This document shows, piece by piece, positions 7,295 to 17,195 of a DNA stretch of 64,000 nucleotides. The translations under genes were made by a program, and so were the position numbers. This DNA is from Fimbriimonadaceae bacterium (GTDB taxonomy: Bacteria > Armatimonadota > Fimbriimonadia > Fimbriimonadales > Fimbriimonadaceae). Every line of letters begins with the position of its first letter. Within the stretch, counting starts at the first letter, position 1. The notes beneath the pieces were generated by a model, which saw only the letters and a program-made list of their open reading frames with translations, was not told the origin of the DNA and did not search any database. Location: the NCBI GenBank assembly GCA_022843485.1, contig JALHNM010000003.1:186001-250000 (forward strand), in the 5' to 3' direction.

Positions 7295-8157
7295 GCCGGC
7301 TTCACCCCGCGGGCGAGGAGGTCGAACAGGGCGGCCGTGGTCCAGTCGCCGTGGCCCTCCTCGTCGAGGACCGCGAGAAGGCTGTCCACGAGGTCCACCC
7401 CGGGGATCGGGGCACCGACCTCGCCCGCGGCCTCGCGAGCATAGCCGAAGTCCTTCCGCTGGTTGGCGATAGAGAACCCCGGCGTCCAGTCCCGGGCGAG
7501 CACCTTCGGGCCGTAGTTGTCGAACGCCCACGACCCCGCCGCCCCCCCGGCGAGAAGCTCGCGGGTCTGGACCAGGTCGAGGCCCGCTCGCTGAGCGAAG
7601 GCGAGGGATTCACAAAGCCCGAGGAGCGCCCCGCCGACCGCGATCTGGTTGGCGACTTTCATCGTCTGGCCCGCCCCGCTCGGTCCGACGAGGGCGGTGC
7701 GCTTCGAGTAGGCGGCCATGACAGGCTCGGCCCTCTGGTAGACATCGGGCTCGCCCCCGCAGAACACCGTGAGCTGACCGGCCTTCGCCCCCATCGACCC
7801 GCCGGTCACCGGAGCGTCGAGGAACGAGACCCCGTCCGCCGCCAGGCTTGTCGCAAGGGCCCTTGCCGCGGCGGGAGCGATGGTCGAGTGGTCGATGATA
7901 AGTGCACCCTCCTGCAGGCCAGGCCTTAGCCCCTCGACCACCGCCTCGACGTCTTCGGTCCGCGAGACACAGACGACGACGGTCTCGCAAGCGCGGGCCA
8001 ACTCGGTTAGGTTCTCGGCCCGGGTCGCGCCAGATGCCACGAGGGGCTCGGCCTTGGCGGGCGTACGGGTCCAGACCACGAGCTCGTTCCCGGCAGCAAG
8101 CAGATGGCCGGCCATCGGCCCGCCCATGACCCCTAACCCCACGAAACCCACGGCCAT
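7291..8157 (-). CDS. NAD(P)-dependent oxidoreductase of the 3-hydroxyisobutyrate dehydrogenase family
   Basis: Cytosolic beta-hydroxyacid dehydrogenase of 288 residues. The Rossmann motif GFVGLGVMGGPMAGHLL is at 4-20, the substrate-binding block DAPVTGGSMGAKAGQLTV is at about 114-131, and the catalytic Lys167 sits in MKVANQ. Members act on 3-hydroxyisobutyrate, tartronate semialdehyde or succinic semialdehyde; the sequence does not say which. It is the first gene of the ABC importer operon and its stop overlaps the ATPase start. A TACAAT hexamer nine bases upstream of ATG suggests a leaderless message. Confidence 0.9.
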   Translation of the reverse strand: MAVGFVGLGVMGGPMAGHLLAAGNELVVWTRTPAKAEPLVASGATRAENLTELARACETVVVCVSRTEDVEAVVEGLRPGLQEGALIIDHSTIAPAAARALATSLAADGVSFLDAPVTGGSMGAKAGQLTVFCGGEPDVYQRAEPVMAAYSKRTALVGPSGAGQTMKVANQIAVGGALLGLCESLAFAQRAGLDLVQTRELLAGGAAGSWAFDNYGPKVLARDWTPGFSIANQRKDFGYAREAAGEVGAPIPGVDLVDSLLAVLDEEGHGDWTTAALFDLLARGVKPA

Positions 8158-8166
8158 CGAACGGCC

Positions 8167-8172
8167 ATTGTA
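8167..8172 (-). promoter_or_regulatory. -10-like hexamer TACAAT, leaderless start of the ABC importer operon
   Basis: TACAAT lies nine bases before the ATG at 8157, with no Shine-Dalgarno between them. A transcript begun about 7 nt downstream of the hexamer would start at or next to the ATG. No convincing -35 is visible. Confidence 0.55.
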
Positions 8173-8260
8173 TATCGCCCGGCCCCCCCGTTTCCGCCGC
8201 CACGCGGAAGGCTCGCGGAAGCGGGTGGCGCAAAGCTGGTAATCGATTTTCGCGAGACCG

Positions 8261-8290
8261 TGACAAACGACGGCCCGATTGGCCTAGAAT
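8261..8290 (+). promoter_or_regulatory. Sigma-70-type promoter of the pilin-like/lipoprotein unit
   Basis: TGACAA (8261-8266) and TAGAAT (8285-8290) are separated by 18 bp, a near-consensus pair in G+C-rich surroundings. The following leader of about 45 nt contains a purine-rich Shine-Dalgarno (AGGGAG) about 8 nt before ATG 8343. Confidence 0.65.
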
Positions 8291-8342
8291 AGCGTTTGCC
8301 CCGCCTGAGAGGGCAGGGCCTCTCTCTTAGGGAGTGCACTCC

Positions 8343-9221
8343 ATGCTTAAACGTGCGTTCACACTCATCGAACTCCTCGTCGTGATCGCGATCATCGCGA
8401 TCCTTGCGGCGATCCTCTTCCCGGTCTTCGCCCAGGCGAAGACGGCCGCCCAGTCGACCGTCTGGCTGAACTCGTTCAAGCAGACGGCGATCTCCACCCA
8501 GCTCTACACGACCGACTACGACGACGGGGTGCCGTTCGTCAATAGCGGCGGAGAGGGCATCCCTGGGTGGGGCTTCGGTCGGCCCGACTATGTCTGGTAC
8601 GAGCTCGTCCAGCCCTACATCAAGAACTGGGAGCTGAGCGCGTGCCCTGCCGACCCGCTCAAGTGGCGCGACCGGGCTCTCGACCCGGTGACGGAGCGCC
8701 CGCTGCCCCCAGGCCACCCGAACTTCTACTACGCGATCGCCTCTCGGGCGAACATCGGCTACAACTTCTACTTCATGAGCCCGTGGGTCGTGATCGGTCG
8801 TTACGTCGGTTCCCGGCCCATCAATCAGAGCCTGGTCGCTTCTCCGTCGAACACGCTCATGCAGGTCGATTCGATCTGGGACCGGAACATCACGTCCGGT
8901 GTCCCGTTCGGCGGCGGTAACTGGGTCGTGCAGGCCCCGTGTCTGCTCGACGAGAACGGTCAGACCCTCGAGCCGATGAAGGGCTGGCGCGACGCGGGCC
9001 AATGGCGCGCGTACACGCCTCCCGGGTGGGACGTCGGTCGCCGCAGCTGGCTTGAGTTCGGCGGCATGTGGCCCTGGTACAGCAAGAAGTTCCGGGTCGC
9101 CATGTTCGACTCGTCGGTCAAGACCATGTCGCTCGGTCAGCTCTCGGCGGGCTGTAACGTGGTTCGCGGAGCCCGCGGTCTGGCCTTCGACGGCGACGCC
9201 TATATCTGGGACCTGCGATGA
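8343..9221 (+). CDS. Pilin-like protein with prepilin N-terminal cleavage/methylation domain (DUF1559-like)
   Basis: A 292-residue protein with a class III prepilin leader: MLKRA, then FTLIELLVVIAIIAILAAIL, with Glu at mature position 5 and cleavage predicted after Ala5. ATG 8343 is preferred over GTG 8334 because it gives the standard short leader and has a Shine-Dalgarno. The globular part is rich in Trp, Tyr and Asn and ends with FRVAMFDSSVKTMS, which resembles the C-terminal (H)-x-DGSV motif of DUF1559 proteins. Such proteins are numerous in Planctomycetes and Armatimonadota genomes; their job is mostly unknown. It overlaps the next gene by ATGA. Confidence 0.85.
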   Translation: MLKRAFTLIELLVVIAIIAILAAILFPVFAQAKTAAQSTVWLNSFKQTAISTQLYTTDYDDGVPFVNSGGEGIPGWGFGRPDYVWYELVQPYIKNWELSACPADPLKWRDRALDPVTERPLPPGHPNFYYAIASRANIGYNFYFMSPWVVIGRYVGSRPINQSLVASPSNTLMQVDSIWDRNITSGVPFGGGNWVVQAPCLLDENGQTLEPMKGWRDAGQWRAYTPPGWDVGRRSWLEFGGMWPWYSKKFRVAMFDSSVKTMSLGQLSAGCNVVRGARGLAFDGDAYIWDLR

Positions 9222-9424
9222 AGCGCGTGCTGACCCTCGTCGTCCTCGCTGCCCTAGCCGGCGCCCTTGTCGGTTGCGACACCGGGGCCCAAGACTCGGC
9301 CGCAGCCGCGAACGAGCTCTCGAAGGAGATGCCGAAGGGCGATGAGTCCAAGGTGTCGACCGACGACTTCTCGGACGCCCTTGGCGGCGCCGGGCAAGTT
9401 AGCGGAAAGAAAGGCGGCGGCTAA
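9218..9424 (+). CDS. Small predicted lipoprotein
   Basis: A 68-residue protein beginning with a lipoprotein signal peptide (MKRVLTLVVLAALAGALVGC, lipobox LVGC with the modified Cys at 20). The rest is a short hydrophilic tail with Ser, Asp, Lys and Gly and no recognisable domain. ATG 9218 overlaps the stop of the pilin-like gene, so the two are translationally coupled and probably work together at the envelope. A strong hairpin follows immediately. Confidence 0.75.
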   Translation: MKRVLTLVVLAALAGALVGCDTGAQDSAAAANELSKEMPKGDESKVSTDDFSDALGGAGQVSGKKGGG

Positions 9425-9445
9425 GCCCCGTACCAAGCTCGCCGA

Positions 9446-9476
9446 ACGCCCCCGGTGCCCTGTGCACCGGGGGCGT
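9446..9476 (+). terminator. Intrinsic-type terminator hairpin after the pilin-like/lipoprotein unit
   Basis: A perfect 12-bp stem (9446-9457 with 9465-9476) encloses a 7-nt loop and is followed by a short, imperfect T run (CGTCGTTT). It lies between two convergent genes and may serve both. Confidence 0.65.
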
Positions 9477-9496: not shown

Positions 9497-10192
9497 TCAG
9501 CGGTCGCCGTCGCCGGCCAGGATTCGGAACCTTCGATCGACCGCGGCGTGGCGCTGAAGGAGGGCCGCCTCGAACGTGAGGCCTTCGACGAGCGCCGGAT
9601 CGTCGGGGGCGCCCTCGCCCGCCATTCCGGCCAGCACGGCGGCCCGGAGCCCTTCGACCGCTTCCTGAACCGATCCGGCCTTCAAGACCCGTTCGGCGAC
9701 GACCGGAGCGATCCGATCCCCGGCCTCGGCGCTCCCGGCGAGCCACGACCACCCCGAGTCCACGACGAAGTCACCGTCGTACTCGAGACAGTAGTACCGG
9801 TCCCCTTCGGGGGCTTCACAGACCTCCATGAAGAGCGCCTTCCCTACCCATGGTGCGGACTGGAAGTTCGCGAAGGCCGACTTGATCGGTTGGCTCAACG
9901 CGTTGACGACTCGCTGGACCGTGACGTCCTGCTCGCTGCGCTGGAACCCTTCGCGATGAGCGAAGTCGATCGCCGCGACGCGGAGCGACTCGACGTCCGA
10001 TTGCTGGCCGATGGCAGCGTACATGAGCCGGTCGTAGACCTCGTAGATCTTCCGGCTGCGGCGCCGGAACGCGGCGGCCACGATCCCCTCCGGTCGCGAG
10101 ACGGCCACGACCGGCACCCCGGACACGATCCTTCCTTCGATGTACTGGGCTCGATGGGCCATCCCCTCTTGCCAATCGTACGGCGTGATCAC
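9497..10192 (-). CDS. Bacterial 20S proteasome alpha-type subunit homologue (PrcA-like)
   Basis: A 231-residue Ntn-hydrolase-fold protein. The region KIYEVYDRLMYAAIG (48-62), then SDVESLRVAAIDFAHREGF and DVTVQRVVNALSQPIKSAF, follows the actinobacterial proteasome alpha subunit in order and spacing. It lacks the propeptide and Thr1 nucleophile of beta subunits, so it should be structural or gating. The GTG start has a TAGAAC hexamer six bases upstream. No PrcB, Pup, ARC/Mpa, PafA or Dop gene lies within the window. It follows the giant propeller gene on the same strand but is separated by a hairpin. An alternative is a diverged member of the bacterial proteasome homologues of unknown assembly. 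Confidence 0.72.
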   Translation of the reverse strand: MITPYDWQEGMAHRAQYIEGRIVSGVPVVAVSRPEGIVAAAFRRRSRKIYEVYDRLMYAAIGQQSDVESLRVAAIDFAHREGFQRSEQDVTVQRVVNALSQPIKSAFANFQSAPWVGKALFMEVCEAPEGDRYYCLEYDGDFVVDSGWSWLAGSAEAGDRIAPVVAERVLKAGSVQEAVEGLRAAVLAGMAGEGAPDDPALVEGLTFEAALLQRHAAVDRRFRILAGDGDR

Positions 10193-10253: not shown

Positions 10254-13200
10254 TCACTGGAGCGGGGGCCGCGAGGAGAACCGCGGGGCGATCGTCTGCA
10301 GGTAGACGTCCGGGGCTCCTGCCCGGCTGCTTCCCCAGAAGAGCCAGACCAACCCAGGGCGCCGTCCATTCGACGTGGTGTTGTTAAATGGCCCGTTGAG
10401 CGGGTCGATCCCGAGGGTCAGGCCGCTCTCGTTGCCGACCTCCTCCATGGGGATCGCCTGTTCGTCGAACTCGGGCACGAGCCGCACCCGGTCTCGCCAC
10501 TCGACCGTGCCGACGCTGACGCCGGCCTGGTCGACGGCGGCGTACCGCACCGTCACGTCCCGTTCCTCCTGGTCGGACTGGAAGTACACCCGCCCGCTCG
10601 CCGGATCGATCTGATAGAACCGCTCGGCCCCGCCGGAGAACGTGACCGTGAAGTCGATCACACTCCCGTCGGGACGGACGGCGACCGGGAAGGGTAGTTG
10701 GACGCCGAACCGGAGGGTCCGGTAGAACGGCCGGGTCGCCGCGCTGCCCTCGCCGGAGGTGCGGGTGTAGGCGACGACGAACCGGTCCCAGCGGATCGGG
10801 GCGTCCAGCGGGGGCCGCTGACCGAGTTCGTTGCCCCAGTAGCTGAGGTCGCCGACGAGGTTCCGCTGGCTATTGTTGGGGAACCAACGCAGGCCAAGGA
10901 AGCGGTCGTCGAAGAGGCTCGCGACGGAGCGGTAGTTCGCCCCGGTGCCCGAGCTGACCCGAAGGATGCTCGGCTCGTAGCGGATGAAGAGCTTGGCCCC
11001 ACGGCGCAGGATCGCCCCGGAGAACCGGACGCTGCCGTTGGCGGTGTCAAGGGTGACGTCCCCGCCGAGCCAAGTCGCGAACCGGGCGATGCCGGACCCG
11101 CTGTCGAACGTGGGCGGCTGGGCCGGGTCGTTCTTGATCGACCGCAGGACGCCGTTCCGGTCGTACGTGAGCACGTCCAGGTTGGCGAGCCCCGCATCGG
11201 AGGTCTGCCACTGCAGGCCCGGTGCCCAGAAGACGCCGGATGCCGCATCGACGGTGAGCTCCTCTTGCCTCACCGGGTAGAAGAGGGGCCCGGTTCGGCC
11301 GCGGGGAGCCCCGGTCCGAGCGTCGACCGGCACCCGGGTCATGTAGACCTCAGCGTACCGGCGGCCACGGACGCGCGCGCTGAACGTGAGTTCGACGCGG
11401 GCGTTCCCCGGGTCGTTCCGGAACCGTCGGAGCGTGGCGCTCGGGGCCCCGAGGCTCTCGAACGCGTTGCCGAGGCGCAGGTTGCCCGTCCGCCACTGAT
11501 CGTCCGGACCACGCGACGGGTCGAAGTTCGTCCAGAAGAGCTGGCCGAGCGCCGACGAGGTGGACGTGACGTAGACCGTGGCGACTTCGGTCGAGCCGTT
11601 GCTCACCTGGACGATGCTGGGACGGCTCTTGCGCCCGGTCACGTCGAGGGGCGAAGCGGAGAGTTCGCTCGCCGTGTACCCGACCTGTCCGTCGTTCCCG
11701 AACCGCATCGGCGCGATCATGACCTGGCTAACGGTGGTCTGGTTGCCGGCCGCGTCGCGCTTCTCTGCCTCGCCGACGAACGCCATGTACCGGGGGCGCG
11801 AGTTGCCCCACAGGCGGCCTTGCTGCGTCGGTTCGTCGAGCATGTTGAAGAACCCGGCGCTTGGGAAGGCGGGCGAGCCGTACCGGTCGGTGCCGGGCAC
11901 GATCGTCTCGCCTTGCTGGAGCGTGAAGACCGAGTTCGGGTTCCACGACCCGTCGCCTGGGGGCACCACCGCCCCGTGGCGCATCCAGCGGTCGTCGTTC
12001 TCCGGCACCCAGGTGTTCAGGTCCCGGATCGGGCTCTCCGCCCGTCGCGCCGCCTCGTCGGTGAGGTTGCCGCGCAGCCCGCCGACGAAGATCCGCCATC
12101 GGTCCTGTCGGCCGAGGTCGGCGTCGGTCCGGGCGCGGGCCGCCCAGTCCGGGGCACCGCTCGAGCCGAGTCGGTTGGACGACCAGGCGACGAAGAGGTT
12201 GCCGAGCCCGTCGCGCATCCCGGTCGGCTGGACGTTGCCCCAGGCGTAGGACTCGTTGCCGTTGAGTAACCGGTCGGCGATCGGGGCGGCCTTCGAGCTG
12301 GCGGCGTTCGTGAGACGGGTCTCGCGGACGTTGACCTTGAGCATCGCCCCCGGCTGGCTGAAGCTCTCAGCCGGGTCGAGCGTCGGCTCCTGGGCGCCGA
12401 TGAGGGTCGGGACCCCGCTGTCCTCGAAGACGTAGAGCCGACGTTGGTAGGAGCCGCTCGGCGTCCCGATGGGCGCGGTCAGACTGACCCGGGGGTCCCC
12501 TGGCCGGACGAGGGTCTGGTCGTAGACGAACCCGCCCGGCGTGCGCAGGTTGGCGTTCGGCCGCGACCGCGGGTTGACGTTGAACCGAGTGCCGATCACG
12601 TCGCCCGGCCGGGCCTTCTGGACCATGTTCGAGCCGAACTGGTCGCCGCCCGGGCTGCCCGACCCGACACGTCGAGACGCCGCATAGCGGAAGTCGAGCG
12701 ACGTGTGGAGGTGCGAGGCCGCGTCGAGCCACGACAGCTCGTGCTGACCCGGGGAGAAGATCTCGACCGGGCGGGCGCCGAACTGATCGGCGAAGAACTT
12801 AGCCACCCGAACGTTGGTGAGGTTGACGTTCCCCTCGTTCACCACCGCGAACGGCTGGAAGAGGTCGCCGAACGGGTTGTCCCCGCTCGTCGGGTCCCAG
12901 GGGGTGAAGGCTGAGTTGGGGTCCCAGGGCGCCCGGGGGCCGAAGTTCTGGCCACCGTTGAACCCGCCGCCGCCCGGCACGGAGCCGAGGTCGATGGTGG
13001 GCGTCGCCATGGTGATCCGCTCGTCCGCGGCGACGCGGAGGCCGAGGCCGTAGCGCCGGAACACCTGGCTCCCTTCGTTGACCTGGCCGCTCCCGACCTG
13101 GGTTTCGAGGAAAACGAGCTGGCTGCCGTAGTAGCCGTCGCGCGGGCTAGGCGGCTGGAACCTCGGCACCACCAGGGTGGTGTCGAACACCGTCGGAGTG

Positions 13201-16200
13201 AGGTCCCTTCGGAGCTGGGCGTCGAAGCCGGTGCGGGTGCGGTAGAGCGCCACGCCGTTCGGGTCGCTGATCCGCGGCGGGTTGAGTTCGACCCCGGTCG
13301 CGAAGAGCGGGTTCTGGGCCGACCCGGCCGAGGACGCGGCGACGCCCATGTTCTCGCGGCCGACGTCGGGGTAGTCCAGGCTCCGGTTCGGGATCTGCGT
13401 CGGGTAGTCCTCGAAGCCGGCGAAGTTCGCGCGGAGCGGCTTGGCGACGCCCCCGGTCTGGGAGCCGTCCGGCCGCCAGGCGATGTCGCGCGGGCCCACC
13501 CGGACTTGGGTGAGACCCCGACCGAGGATCAAGACCATCAGGCTCCGGTCGATCACGATCACGTTTTGCTTGCCGGTGCCGCCGTGGGCGACGAACTCGC
13601 CCTTAGAGGTGAAGTCCGGCCCGAAGAACCCGGCGGGCTCGACGAACGTCGGGTTCGCCGCCCACTGGTCGACGTTCTCGTTCCCGTTCACGAAGAAGCG
13701 CTTGAACTCCTGCGAGGTCTCGTTCTCGTTGACGGGAAGGATGTCGCCGTCCCCGATGCTGAGGTCGACGGTGCCGTCGTTCCGGAGCATCCGCACAGCG
13801 AGCGGGTTCGCGGTGTAGAAGTCGCAGTCCGGGTTCGGCGTGAAGGTGGCCGGTTGGCGCAGCCGCACCTGGTCGCTCCGCAGTCCGCGTTGGCCCGGGG
13901 CGACGGCGCTGACGCGCACGAAGCCGGCGCCAGGCGTGACACCCGCGTTGCCGGTCGTCATGATCGGGACGCCGGTAAGGCAGAACCCTCGGCTCGGATT
14001 GTCGGAGAGCGGCCGGACGGGGATCTGTCGGCGTTGGCTGGTGCGCCCGGTGCTCGTGACTTCGAACTCCAGGTAGTAGTTCGCGAGGTTCCCGGTGAGG
14101 ATCGGGAGGTTCGCGACGAGGATGTAGAACGTCTCGCCGAACTCGAAGTGCCTCCGCTGGGCCTCCTCGGTCCGCGCCTGGGTGATGTCGCCGGTGCTGA
14201 TCTGCCCCGTGTCCGCCCGTTCGCGGAGCCGGTCGTAGGCTTCCGGCGAGAGGAGCACGATGTCGTCCCGGTTCAGGATCTGGTTGATCTGGTCGGTCTC
14301 GTCCTCGCCTTGGTCGATGGGCGGGTCGATCGGCGGGTCCCCGGGCGTGAGCGGCTGCGGGTCAGTGTCGCTGATCGAGTTGAACGCGTAGAGCGAGCCG
14401 GTGCTGTCCCCGGTGTACATCCAGGAGTGGCGGGGGTCGGCGCCGGGGTTGTCGAACCCACCGGCCGCGATGGAGGCGACCTGGTCGCTCCCGGCGAGGT
14501 TGACCCGCCAGAGACCATGCCGATTGTCGCGCCCAGTGGCACCGCCCGCCTCGAAGGCGCTGATGCGGCCGTTGATGGCGGGGACGAGCACGACGGGCAC
14601 GTTGCTGAACGGCCCGGCGCCGGTGGCGTCTCGAAGGCGCAGGTAGGTGAAGCGCAAGGAGGCGGCGGGGGCGGGGCTCTCGTCGACGACCCGCCAGCGG
14701 ACGGTCCCGTTCGCCGGGTCGAGCGACACGAACTTACCGTTCTGGTCGCAGAAGAACACTGAGTCGACCCCGTAGACCCCACCGTTGAACTGACCGGGCG
14801 GGTCGACGAGCATGCTCGCGGGCACGGCGACGCCCCCTGCCCGGCCGAACGACTGGAAGCCGCCGTTGGCGGTGTCGGGTTGGCGCCAGGCGAGGGTGCC
14901 GTCGGCCTCGTTGAGGGCGAAGACCTCGCCCACGGCCGACGTTTGGTCCTGGGTGGCGGCGAAGAAGACGCGGCCGAAGGCGACGACGGGGGTGACGTTC
15001 ACCGGCCCGAGCACCGGGTCGGTCGCGAGGGGCCACTGCCAGACGACGCTGGTCGTCTTGGTGGCGGAGTCGCCGGATGCGTCCAGGGCGGTGACCCGGC
15101 CCTCGGCCTGGGGCACGATGACGATGGGCCGGTTGCCCGCGGCGGTCCCGAAGGCGACCGAGCCGGCGATGGGTCGCAGGCCCGCTTGCATGGGCACGGT
15201 CGGGGTGGTCGGGTTGTAGTCGTCGGGGTAGGTCCAGCGCCGGACGGTCGTCCCGTCGCCGCGGCCCGCCACATCGAGGCAATAGACCTTGCCGTTCTGG
15301 CCGGCGATATAAAGGAGGTCCGTGCCGTTGACCCGTTGAACGAGGGCCGAGCTCACGTTGAAGCCGGTCGGGGCCTCGGCGATCCCGTCCTTTCCGTCTT
15401 GGTCAGGCGCGCGGTTCGGGTCGCTCGCGGGCCGCTCGCTCGGATAGGTCCAGTACACGGTCGGACGCCCGCCGTTCGCGGGGTCACCGTGGGCGTCCAT
15501 GCAGTAGAGGCGCCCGTTCTCCATCGCGACGATGACGACGGACCGCTCGACCAGTGCGTTGTTGACCCTGACCTGGGCGGTGACTTGGACGGGGGTCGAA
15601 TCGACGCCGAGGTCGGCCTGACGCACGAACCGGACGGCGTCGGCGTAGGCGATTTTGCCCGCGTCGGTGGCGTCGGTCGAGCCGTTCGTGATCGCCACGC
15701 GCAGCGGGGCGGCGAGCGGGTCGTTCGGCGTGCCGTCGCGAGGTTGGAACGGCAAGCGGTACCAACCCGCGGGCCGGGTCTGGTCGAGCGTGTAGGTGCC
15801 ATCGACCGTCGCCCCACGGAGGACCTGGACCTGGAGCGCTCGCGGCAGGTTCGCGTCGCCGGGGAGGTAGACCTCGACGAAGTAGCTGCCTTCTGGCAGG
15901 CTAGGCCCGTAGAGCACCTGCTCGGTGAACGGCCCGACGGTCACGCCGCCCCGGAAGTAAGAGGGCCCGAGGGCGGTCGGCCGGTCGGTCTGGGGCAGGA
16001 AGCCCGCGGTCGGGGCGACGCCGCCGTTCAGGTCGTCGACCTGAACGCGTTGGTCGGCCCGGCTCAGGCTCTGGTCCGGGGCAAGGTCGAGCCCGAGGAT
16101 CCAGTCCCGGCGCCCGGTGGCGTAGGCGGTGACTTCGGCCTCGCTCGTGTTGAACGGCCGCTTGACCGGGAAGGACCAGACGAGGTTTCGCCGGAACACG

Positions 16201-17195
16201 TTCCCGGGTTCGGCTTGGAAGCCGTTGTGGACGAAGGACGTCGTGACGCCGAGGCGGTACTGGCGGCTGAGGTCGCCGACGAACGTGGACTCGTTGGCCG
16301 GGCTGACGACGCGCCAGCGGAAGGTCTCGGTGGCGCCGTTCGGGCGGGTCGCGCCAATTCGGCTCACGACGGGCGTCGCGGTGATCGTGCTCGAGCCGCG
16401 GCGGCTCTGGCTCACGACCTGGGCGGCGTCGGCGTAGACGAGCTCTTCGCCAGGCCGGGCGGAGGGGTCTCGCGGCTGGCCGTCCACGTCGAGCGGGACG
16501 GTGTTGTAGAGCGTGACGAGCAGCGTCGTGCCGGTCGGGCGGAAGGTGCGGTCGGTGGAGAGGCCACCGTTCCCGATGCGGATGTACCCGCCCGCGCCGA
16601 TCGTGAAGTCGACGACGTCCGTGAAGTCGCCGCCGTCGGCACCGGTCACTCGGTAGACCCAGTAGCGCTGGGGGAACCGGGAGACGCCGCCTCGGACGGT
16701 CGGCCCCACAGGCAGGTTGACGTAGAGCTCGTGGTCGACCCCTTGTTCAAGGTTCGAGAACTGCCACCGGTAGGTGGCGGTGGCCCCGGCCGTGGGATCG
16801 GTCGAGCTCGTCCCGCGAGCGGTCTGGACGTAGCGGTAGGGGACCGTTCCGACGGTGTTCTGGACGTAGCCGAACGCGAGCGTCTGGGCGTTGAGCGCGG
16901 ACTCCCAGATCCCGGTCCCGACCGAGCCGCCGGGCGAGTCGTTGTCGACGGTCGACCGGATCGCCTGGATCGGGTCCCACCAGCGCAGGAACGCGCGCCC
17001 GGGCTGGTTGTACTCCCAAGCGTCCCGCCCGCCGACGACGTCGGCGGGGAGCCCGGTGCGGTTCGGGTTCCCTGCCGCCATCGGGAAGTCCTGGGCGAAG
17101 GCGACGAGGCCGAGGACGGCCGTCGCGAGGACGGTCGTCAGGGCGGCCACGAGCCGCGACGGGCTCTTCCGAGCCGAGTTCGGGGTCCAGTCCAT
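10254..17195 (-). CDS. Giant exported protein with golvesin-like domains and PQQ-type beta-propeller
   Basis: A 2313-residue protein with an N-terminal signal peptide (hydrophobic stretch about 15-34, ending LVAFAQ). Two beta-rich stretches, about 90-260 and 425-525, end in the pattern W/Y...F...YADA(V/A)xFV, which resembles golvesin-type domains. Residues about 550-940 hold repeated propeller blades of PQQ type (NGRLYCMDA, NGKVYCLDVAG, GEVFALNEADGTLAWRQ, NGKFVSLDPANGTVRW). The remaining 1350 residues are long beta-rich regions without a domain I recognise. The ATG at 17195 is 3 bp after the upstream stop. It is the last gene of the minor-pilin operon, the place held by the propeller adhesin PilY1 in Proteobacteria. 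A cell-surface or pilus-tip role is inferred. Confidence 0.8.
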   Translation of the reverse strand: MDWTPNSARKSPSRLVAALTTVLATAVLGLVAFAQDFPMAAGNPNRTGLPADVVGGRDAWEYNQPGRAFLRWWDPIQAIRSTVDNDSPGGSVGTGIWESALNAQTLAFGYVQNTVGTVPYRYVQTARGTSSTDPTAGATATYRWQFSNLEQGVDHELYVNLPVGPTVRGGVSRFPQRYWVYRVTGADGGDFTDVVDFTIGAGGYIRIGNGGLSTDRTFRPTGTTLLVTLYNTVPLDVDGQPRDPSARPGEELVYADAAQVVSQSRRGSSTITATPVVSRIGATRPNGATETFRWRVVSPANESTFVGDLSRQYRLGVTTSFVHNGFQAEPGNVFRRNLVWSFPVKRPFNTSEAEVTAYATGRRDWILGLDLAPDQSLSRADQRVQVDDLNGGVAPTAGFLPQTDRPTALGPSYFRGGVTVGPFTEQVLYGPSLPEGSYFVEVYLPGDANLPRALQVQVLRGATVDGTYTLDQTRPAGWYRLPFQPRDGTPNDPLAAPLRVAITNGSTDATDAGKIAYADAVRFVRQADLGVDSTPVQVTAQVRVNNALVERSVVIVAMENGRLYCMDAHGDPANGGRPTVYWTYPSERPASDPNRAPDQDGKDGIAEAPTGFNVSSALVQRVNGTDLLYIAGQNGKVYCLDVAGRGDGTTVRRWTYPDDYNPTTPTVPMQAGLRPIAGSVAFGTAAGNRPIVIVPQAEGRVTALDASGDSATKTTSVVWQWPLATDPVLGPVNVTPVVAFGRVFFAATQDQTSAVGEVFALNEADGTLAWRQPDTANGGFQSFGRAGGVAVPASMLVDPPGQFNGGVYGVDSVFFCDQNGKFVSLDPANGTVRWRVVDESPAPAASLRFTYLRLRDATGAGPFSNVPVVLVPAINGRISAFEAGGATGRDNRHGLWRVNLAGSDQVASIAAGGFDNPGADPRHSWMYTGDSTGSLYAFNSISDTDPQPLTPGDPPIDPPIDQGEDETDQINQILNRDDIVLLSPEAYDRLRERADTGQISTGDITQARTEEAQRRHFEFGETFYILVANLPILTGNLANYYLEFEVTSTGRTSQRRQIPVRPLSDNPSRGFCLTGVPIMTTGNAGVTPGAGFVRVSAVAPGQRGLRSDQVRLRQPATFTPNPDCDFYTANPLAVRMLRNDGTVDLSIGDGDILPVNENETSQEFKRFFVNGNENVDQWAANPTFVEPAGFFGPDFTSKGEFVAHGGTGKQNVIVIDRSLMVLILGRGLTQVRVGPRDIAWRPDGSQTGGVAKPLRANFAGFEDYPTQIPNRSLDYPDVGRENMGVAASSAGSAQNPLFATGVELNPPRISDPNGVALYRTRTGFDAQLRRDLTPTVFDTTLVVPRFQPPSPRDGYYGSQLVFLETQVGSGQVNEGSQVFRRYGLGLRVAADERITMATPTIDLGSVPGGGGFNGGQNFGPRAPWDPNSAFTPWDPTSGDNPFGDLFQPFAVVNEGNVNLTNVRVAKFFADQFGARPVEIFSPGQHELSWLDAASHLHTSLDFRYAASRRVGSGSPGGDQFGSNMVQKARPGDVIGTRFNVNPRSRPNANLRTPGGFVYDQTLVRPGDPRVSLTAPIGTPSGSYQRRLYVFEDSGVPTLIGAQEPTLDPAESFSQPGAMLKVNVRETRLTNAASSKAAPIADRLLNGNESYAWGNVQPTGMRDGLGNLFVAWSSNRLGSSGAPDWAARARTDADLGRQDRWRIFVGGLRGNLTDEAARRAESPIRDLNTWVPENDDRWMRHGAVVPPGDGSWNPNSVFTLQQGETIVPGTDRYGSPAFPSAGFFNMLDEPTQQGRLWGNSRPRYMAFVGEAEKRDAAGNQTTVSQVMIAPMRFGNDGQVGYTASELSASPLDVTGRKSRPSIVQVSNGSTEVATVYVTSTSSALGQLFWTNFDPSRGPDDQWRTGNLRLGNAFESLGAPSATLRRFRNDPGNARVELTFSARVRGRRYAEVYMTRVPVDARTGAPRGRTGPLFYPVRQEELTVDAASGVFWAPGLQWQTSDAGLANLDVLTYDRNGVLRSIKNDPAQPPTFDSGSGIARFATWLGGDVTLDTANGSVRFSGAILRRGAKLFIRYEPSILRVSSGTGANYRSVASLFDDRFLGLRWFPNNSQRNLVGDLSYWGNELGQRPPLDAPIRWDRFVVAYTRTSGEGSAATRPFYRTLRFGVQLPFPVAVRPDGSVIDFTVTFSGGAERFYQIDPASGRVYFQSDQEERDVTVRYAAVDQAGVSVGTVEWRDRVRLVPEFDEQAIPMEEVGNESGLTLGIDPLNGPFNNTTSNGRRPGLVWLFWGSSRAGAPDVYLQTIAPRFSSRPPLQ

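Follow-up and report, generated by a model that had tools for sequence, protein, structure and literature searches.

The window, a 64,000 nucleotide stretch from the genome of a Fimbriimonadaceae bacterium (C3:186001-250000), encodes a protein that resembles the alpha subunit of the actinobacterial 20S proteasome. A first-pass annotation described it as an orphan, a single-subunit homologue of unknown assembly, and noted that genes for a beta subunit, Pup, an ATPase ring and a ligase are missing around it. The locus thus raises the question whether this protein acts without a partner, or is one half of a proteasome whose other parts are encoded elsewhere in the genome. The source genome comprises 2.96 Mb in 20 contigs and is 98.78% complete. 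A literature search found no paper on a Fimbriimonadaceae proteasome.

Identity of the alpha subunit

The gene, prcA, is located at positions 9497..10192 on the minus strand, with a GTG start at 10192, and encodes a protein of 231 amino acids. The translation starts MITPYDWQE, has no internal stop codons, and contains all three PrcA-like motifs named in the first-pass annotation, KIYEVYDRLMYAA, VAAIDFAHREGF and VVNALSQPIKSAF. An NCBIfam search listed a single family, TIGR03691, the bacterial proteasome alpha model, at 88.7 bits (E 3.8e-25), which is under its curated cut-off of 139.05 bits. The Pfam family PF00227 (Proteasome) gave 20.7 bits against a cut-off of 22.4 bits. With scores under both curated cut-offs, the protein is, judged by its sequence, a divergent member of the PrcA family. 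PrcA chains in the PDB are matched by the protein at E values from 1.9e-14 to about 4e-14 (phmmer), and by an alignment profile of 48 relatives at 3.3e-20 to 2.3e-19.

A monomer model was made with AlphaFold2 from the 48-row alignment (mean pLDDT 95.2, pTM 0.91). DSSP assigns an N-terminal helix of the H0 type to residues 4-22 of the model (10127..10183, minus strand). Among the matches listed by Foldseek, PrcA of M. tuberculosis and Rhodococcus are best (E 3e-16). The top match in VIA-align is also PrcA, with Z 25.3 over 209 residues at 2.5 A and about 25% identity; the best 22 listed rows are all Mycobacterium or Rhodococcus PrcA (Z 24.5-25.3), followed by archaeal and eukaryotic alpha subunits at Z about 21-22. 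In brief, the model has the N-terminal helix and the proteasome fold of an alpha subunit, and the sequence has neither a propeptide nor a catalytic Thr1. Actinobacterial PrcA, as found in M. tuberculosis and Rhodococcus, thus shares full-length homology, the predicted fold and the N-terminal helix with the window protein. The nearest relatives in a scan of named genomes are Armatimonadota, and the closest named one is the alpha of a Fimbriimonadaceae bacterium with 61% identity (both among the best 80 of 436 encoding stretches).

The reading as a proteasome alpha-type subunit of the PrcA kind, from outside Actinobacteria, agrees with TIGR03691, the PDB PrcA chains and the model fold. The weak Pfam score would also suit another Ntn-hydrolase family (HslV, Anbu or BPH), but we give this next to no weight: NCBIfam returns the bacterial alpha model alone, the predicted fold is closest to PrcA over its whole length, including the helix typical of alpha subunits, and the sequence has no Thr at a mature N-terminus. 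Pfam and NCBIfam list none of the three families for this protein at E values up to 1, and none is among the best 50 matches listed in each of the two structure searches. We rejected a non-proteasome Ntn-hydrolase, there being no sign of one in Pfam, NCBIfam, phmmer, profile or structure comparisons. A best structural match of that kind was what the first-pass annotation had named as evidence against itself; PrcA structures came out on top instead.

Partner genes in the genome

The window itself is indeed devoid of partner genes, and whole-genome searches place all of them on contigs C1 and C2. The Pfam Proteasome family is represented by two genes in the whole genome, the window alpha and a single-copy prcB at C1:71780-72418 (126.5 bits). 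Thr1 of PrcB is its residue 28, as aligned to mature PDB chains, and Asp17 and Lys33, numbered from Thr1, are in place.

The C1 locus has the order Dop, a 61 amino acid protein ending in YRQRSGE, and PrcB. The small protein is UBact, a Pup-like tag, with E values of 1.8e-21 to PF20513 and 6.3e-21 to NF033388, both over cut-off. Its gene, of which there is one copy in the genome, lies between Dop and PrcB (L004:13530-13715). The adjoining Dop gene, at C1:70057-71409, scores 320.9 bits with the Dop model versus 255.2 bits with the PafA model. A second protein of the Pup_ligase family (PF03136) is encoded at C2:86021-87379 and scores almost equally with the two models (Dop 275.9 bits, PafA 273.3 bits). 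We call this protein PafA because it is not the copy beside UBact and because it is matched at 568-888 bits by its counterparts in 20 stretches fetched for comparison, but at 248 bits by the one Dop present in them. The ARC ATPase, with AAA and proteasomal-ATPase OB domains, is encoded at C1:696659-698128 (449 bits). It should be noted that alpha, beta, Dop, PafA and ARC of this genome all score under the NCBI curated cut-offs, which we assume were set mainly on actinobacterial proteins.

The heat-shock repressor gene hrcA (TIGR00331) is divergent from pafA in this genome (L255:6884-7897 and 8001-9452), and the pair recurs in four of 20 further pafA neighbourhoods. In M. tuberculosis, HrcA has been identified among the putative targets of the Pup-proteasome (PMC7448276).

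We did not find an alpha gene at the Dop-UBact-PrcB locus on C1. Searches with TIGR03691 and with a profile of the 17-row alignment A1 gave no second alpha elsewhere in the genome. Since the C1 cluster is without alpha and the window gene is the only alpha of the genome, the window protein completes the UBact-proteasome of this genome as its alpha half. The designation as an orphan of unknown assembly therefore does not hold, as the genome has one beta, UBact, Dop, PafA and ARC. A complete Pup-proteasome locus with a second alpha had been proposed as a finding that would overturn it; such a locus does exist elsewhere in the genome with all but the alpha, there is no second alpha, and the missing one is the window gene itself. 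We are highly confident that the product of the window gene is PrcA, and that it serves as alpha subunit in a two-subunit 20S proteasome, part of a UBact-proteasome system that is complete but scattered.

Linkage of prcA and prcB in Armatimonadota

Dop/PafA homologues have been described as occurring "very sporadically" in a number of phyla, Armatimonadetes being one of them (PMC7947786). We searched 61 genomes of relatives and found alpha in 52, beta in 54, a Dop/PafA protein in 59 and ARC in 58. Every one of the 52 alpha-bearing relatives has exactly one copy. Linkage was counted in the 51 relatives with both alpha and beta.

The genes prcA and prcB are unlinked in all 32 genomes with both that belong to family f1 of the search, which we infer to be Fimbriimonadaceae; the nearest pair is 18 kb apart (G010), and in one of the 32 (G036) the beta is a fragment at a contig end. 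They are on different contigs in the source genome. A Dop/PafA gene is found at most 2 kb from prcB in 31 of the 32. The sister families f2, f3 and f5 encode orthologous alphas, 37-43% identical to the window protein (four sister-family rows, alignment A1), but here prcA is located directly behind prcB in 19 of 19 genomes, with gaps of 32-83 nt between the matches.

The same pattern was seen in a survey of 151 genomes of the phylum, in which weak beta matches of about 42 bits or lower were not counted. Alpha is present in 86 of these genomes, and beta in all 86. All 31 f1 genomes have the two genes unlinked, whereas 54 of the 55 others have them no more than 1.05 kb apart; in the remaining genome, G069, they lie on different contigs. 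Among named genomes, beta adjoins alpha in 26 of 80 loci (best 80 of 436). Several of the linked named loci have the order ARC-Dop-PrcB-PrcA-PafA, with a second Dop-like protein as PafA, and this is likely the ancestral order. In one genome, two neighbouring UBact matches, the second of them partial, lie near prcB (G071:C4:768105-768378), possibly a duplicated tag.

In a FastTree phylogeny, the alphas of the own family fall on one side of one branch. The tree was not used as evidence for a single relocation, as branch support is unreadable for alpha and 0.227 for beta.

The upstream neighbour of prcA on the same strand, 61 nt away, encodes a 2313 amino acid protein with a PQQ_2/BamB-like stretch (10254-17195, minus strand). 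An operon with neighbours in the window was rejected, as relatives have a different neighbour there. The alpha gene of G001, from the same genus, is located behind genes for ribosomal protein L11 and a 5_nucleotid_C protein. A nearby beta is absent from 55 loci, the window's and 54 named ones; the gene picker called no alpha in three of the 55. An L11-type family is present in 20 of these loci and a 5_nucleotid_C-type family in 24. Thus, prcA of f1 is often found near genes for L11 and a 5'-nucleotidase C-terminal-domain protein, and this context is gone in the source genome. Searches around prcA gave no promoter-like or terminator-like sites, of which few are expected by chance, and a repeat scan gave short imperfect matches alone.

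The distance of prcA from prcB and from all other partners, together with a family context of unrelated functions (L11 and the 5'-nucleotidase C-terminal-domain protein), could suggest a true orphan, either a ring built of alpha alone or an alpha put to another use, working without PrcB. We regard this as very improbable. The genome has only this alpha and exactly one beta, which is without an adjoining alpha, the orthologues in the sister families directly follow prcB, and every alpha-bearing genome of the phylum survey also has a beta. A strong beta without alpha was found in none of the genomes in that survey. The relatives search has two such cases against strict pairing, G020 (92% complete) and G048 (88% complete), where beta is present and alpha was not detected. 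G020 has beta, ARC, UBact and two PF03136 proteins, and its missing alpha is most simply an assembly gap. On the basis of the whole-genome partner search and the phylum survey, we rejected an orphan or an alpha-only assembly. The position of prcA beside prcB is the usual order and not a functional requirement.

Joint loss and co-variation of the components

Profile searches did not recover alpha in nine relatives (G020, G029, G034, G035, G039, G048, G053, G054 and G060). Two of these, G029 and G039, are at least 96% complete and have no alpha, beta, Dop/PafA, ARC or UBact; most of the others are incomplete assemblies. G190, which shares its genus with G029, is without alpha, beta and UBact. 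G029 and G190 are small genomes (1.5 Mb), and G039 belongs to another family. The system is thus jointly lost in two lineages, and its absence from G029, G190 and G039 is probably secondary.

The distance matrices of alpha and beta correlate across the 31 f1 members for which both sequences were at hand (r 0.56), and none of 5000 shuffles reached this value, the best being 0.31. The correlation also reflects the shared history of the organisms and is by itself no proof of interaction.

Docking of the ATPase to the alpha ring

In M. tuberculosis, the activators Mpa, an ATPase, and PafE dock by a GQYL motif at their C-terminus, which enters between the alpha subunits. The Tyr of the motif contacts Arg26 or Glu119 of alpha, the end of the motif contacts Lys52 and the Gly contacts Asp144, and a change of Arg26 or Lys52 to Ala abolishes degradation driven by PafE (PMC9599533; PMC8755798).

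The ARC of the source genome (L006:1444-3606) ends in KKTIV and is without a GQYL or HbYX tail. We compared 37 ARC proteins of Armatimonadota, 30 from genomes of the order and seven from linked loci. None of them has a Tyr or Phe as the penultimate residue. In 34 of 37 the sequence closes with two residues drawn from V, I or L, and all 37 have an Arg or Lys within the five residues before these, as in tails such as RRTVI.

The pocket of the alpha subunit has changed as well. Lys48 (codon 10049..10051, minus strand) corresponds to Lys52 of M. tuberculosis PrcA in the activator-docking pocket and is a Lys in 48 of 48 aligned alphas. Asp139 (9776..9778, minus strand) corresponds to Asp144 of the docking pocket and is conserved in 47 of 48. 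The places of the two residues that contact the activator Tyr are taken by Ser24 (10121..10123, minus strand) for Arg26, where Arg occurs in none and Lys in one of the 48, and by Val116 (9845..9847, minus strand) for Glu119, where Glu occurs in none (44 V, two I and two L). The window alpha thus shares the equivalents of Lys52 and Asp144 with actinobacterial PrcA, but differs from it by the absence of equivalents of Arg26 and Glu119; the two are about 25% identical when aligned by structure. Residue 21 of the window protein, three residues before the place of Arg26 and on the same helix, is Arg in 41 and Lys in seven of the 48 alphas, and might stand in for Arg26. The patterns at the ARC tail and at the four pocket residues are seen in linked and unlinked loci alike, and are therefore a trait of the system of the phylum and not of the relocation of prcA.

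Our tentative suggestion, to which we give slightly less than even chances, is that ARC of Armatimonadota, including that of the source organism, docks independently of tyrosine, with a tail of the type R-[RK]-x-[VI]-[VIL] in place of GQYL and an alpha pocket that has changed too, lacking equivalents of Arg26 and Glu119 and keeping the Lys and the Asp, which contact the end and the backbone of the tail. Alternatively, alpha and beta would assemble into a 20S core to which ARC does not dock, and another activator would serve the core. A 2012 review suggests a lack of docking for actinobacteria that have no genes for proteasome subunits and whose ATPases are without the C-terminal motif (PMC3511204), and we keep this alternative because of such ATPases. 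It also accords with the missing penultimate Tyr in all 37 ARC tails and with the loss of both Tyr-contacting residues from all 48 alphas. We nevertheless consider it unlikely, since the tail is not decayed, with its two hydrophobic end residues (V, I or L) and the preceding basic residue, since the pocket Lys and Asp are retained, and since G029 and G039 have lost ARC along with the core. Tyrosine-independent docking of ARC, with a joint change of its tail and the alpha pocket, would be a testable variation on how ATPases open the gates of proteasomes.

A scattered UBact-proteasome

UBact was reportedly described by Lehmann and colleagues in 2017. The source genome has all components of the UBact-proteasome of Gram-negative bacteria, namely UBact, Dop, PafA, ARC, PrcB and PrcA, but in Fimbriimonadaceae prcA, pafA and arc are dispersed. 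We suggest that an ancestral ARC-Dop-UBact-PrcB-PrcA-PafA cluster was broken up in this family; Dop-UBact-PrcB would have been kept together, and prcA, pafA and arc would have come to lie elsewhere.

For the assembly of 20S rings, their activity, the docking of ARC and the marking of proteins for degradation by UBact in the source organism, we infer a working that would be analogous to that of actinobacterial proteasomes. In brief, each outer ring, which is gated, would consist of seven alpha subunits, and each inner ring, which is proteolytic, of seven PrcB subunits with Thr1 as the nucleophile. UBact would be attached to substrates by PafA and removed by Dop. The ARC ATPase would unfold the tagged proteins and feed them through the alpha gate.

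The window gene does not encode a lone proteasome homologue but an ordinary, though divergent, PrcA. The separation of prcA and prcB is of note, as a proteasome should require as much alpha as beta. Here a bacterial family has retained the whole UBact-proteasome although the genes of its core no longer share an operon.
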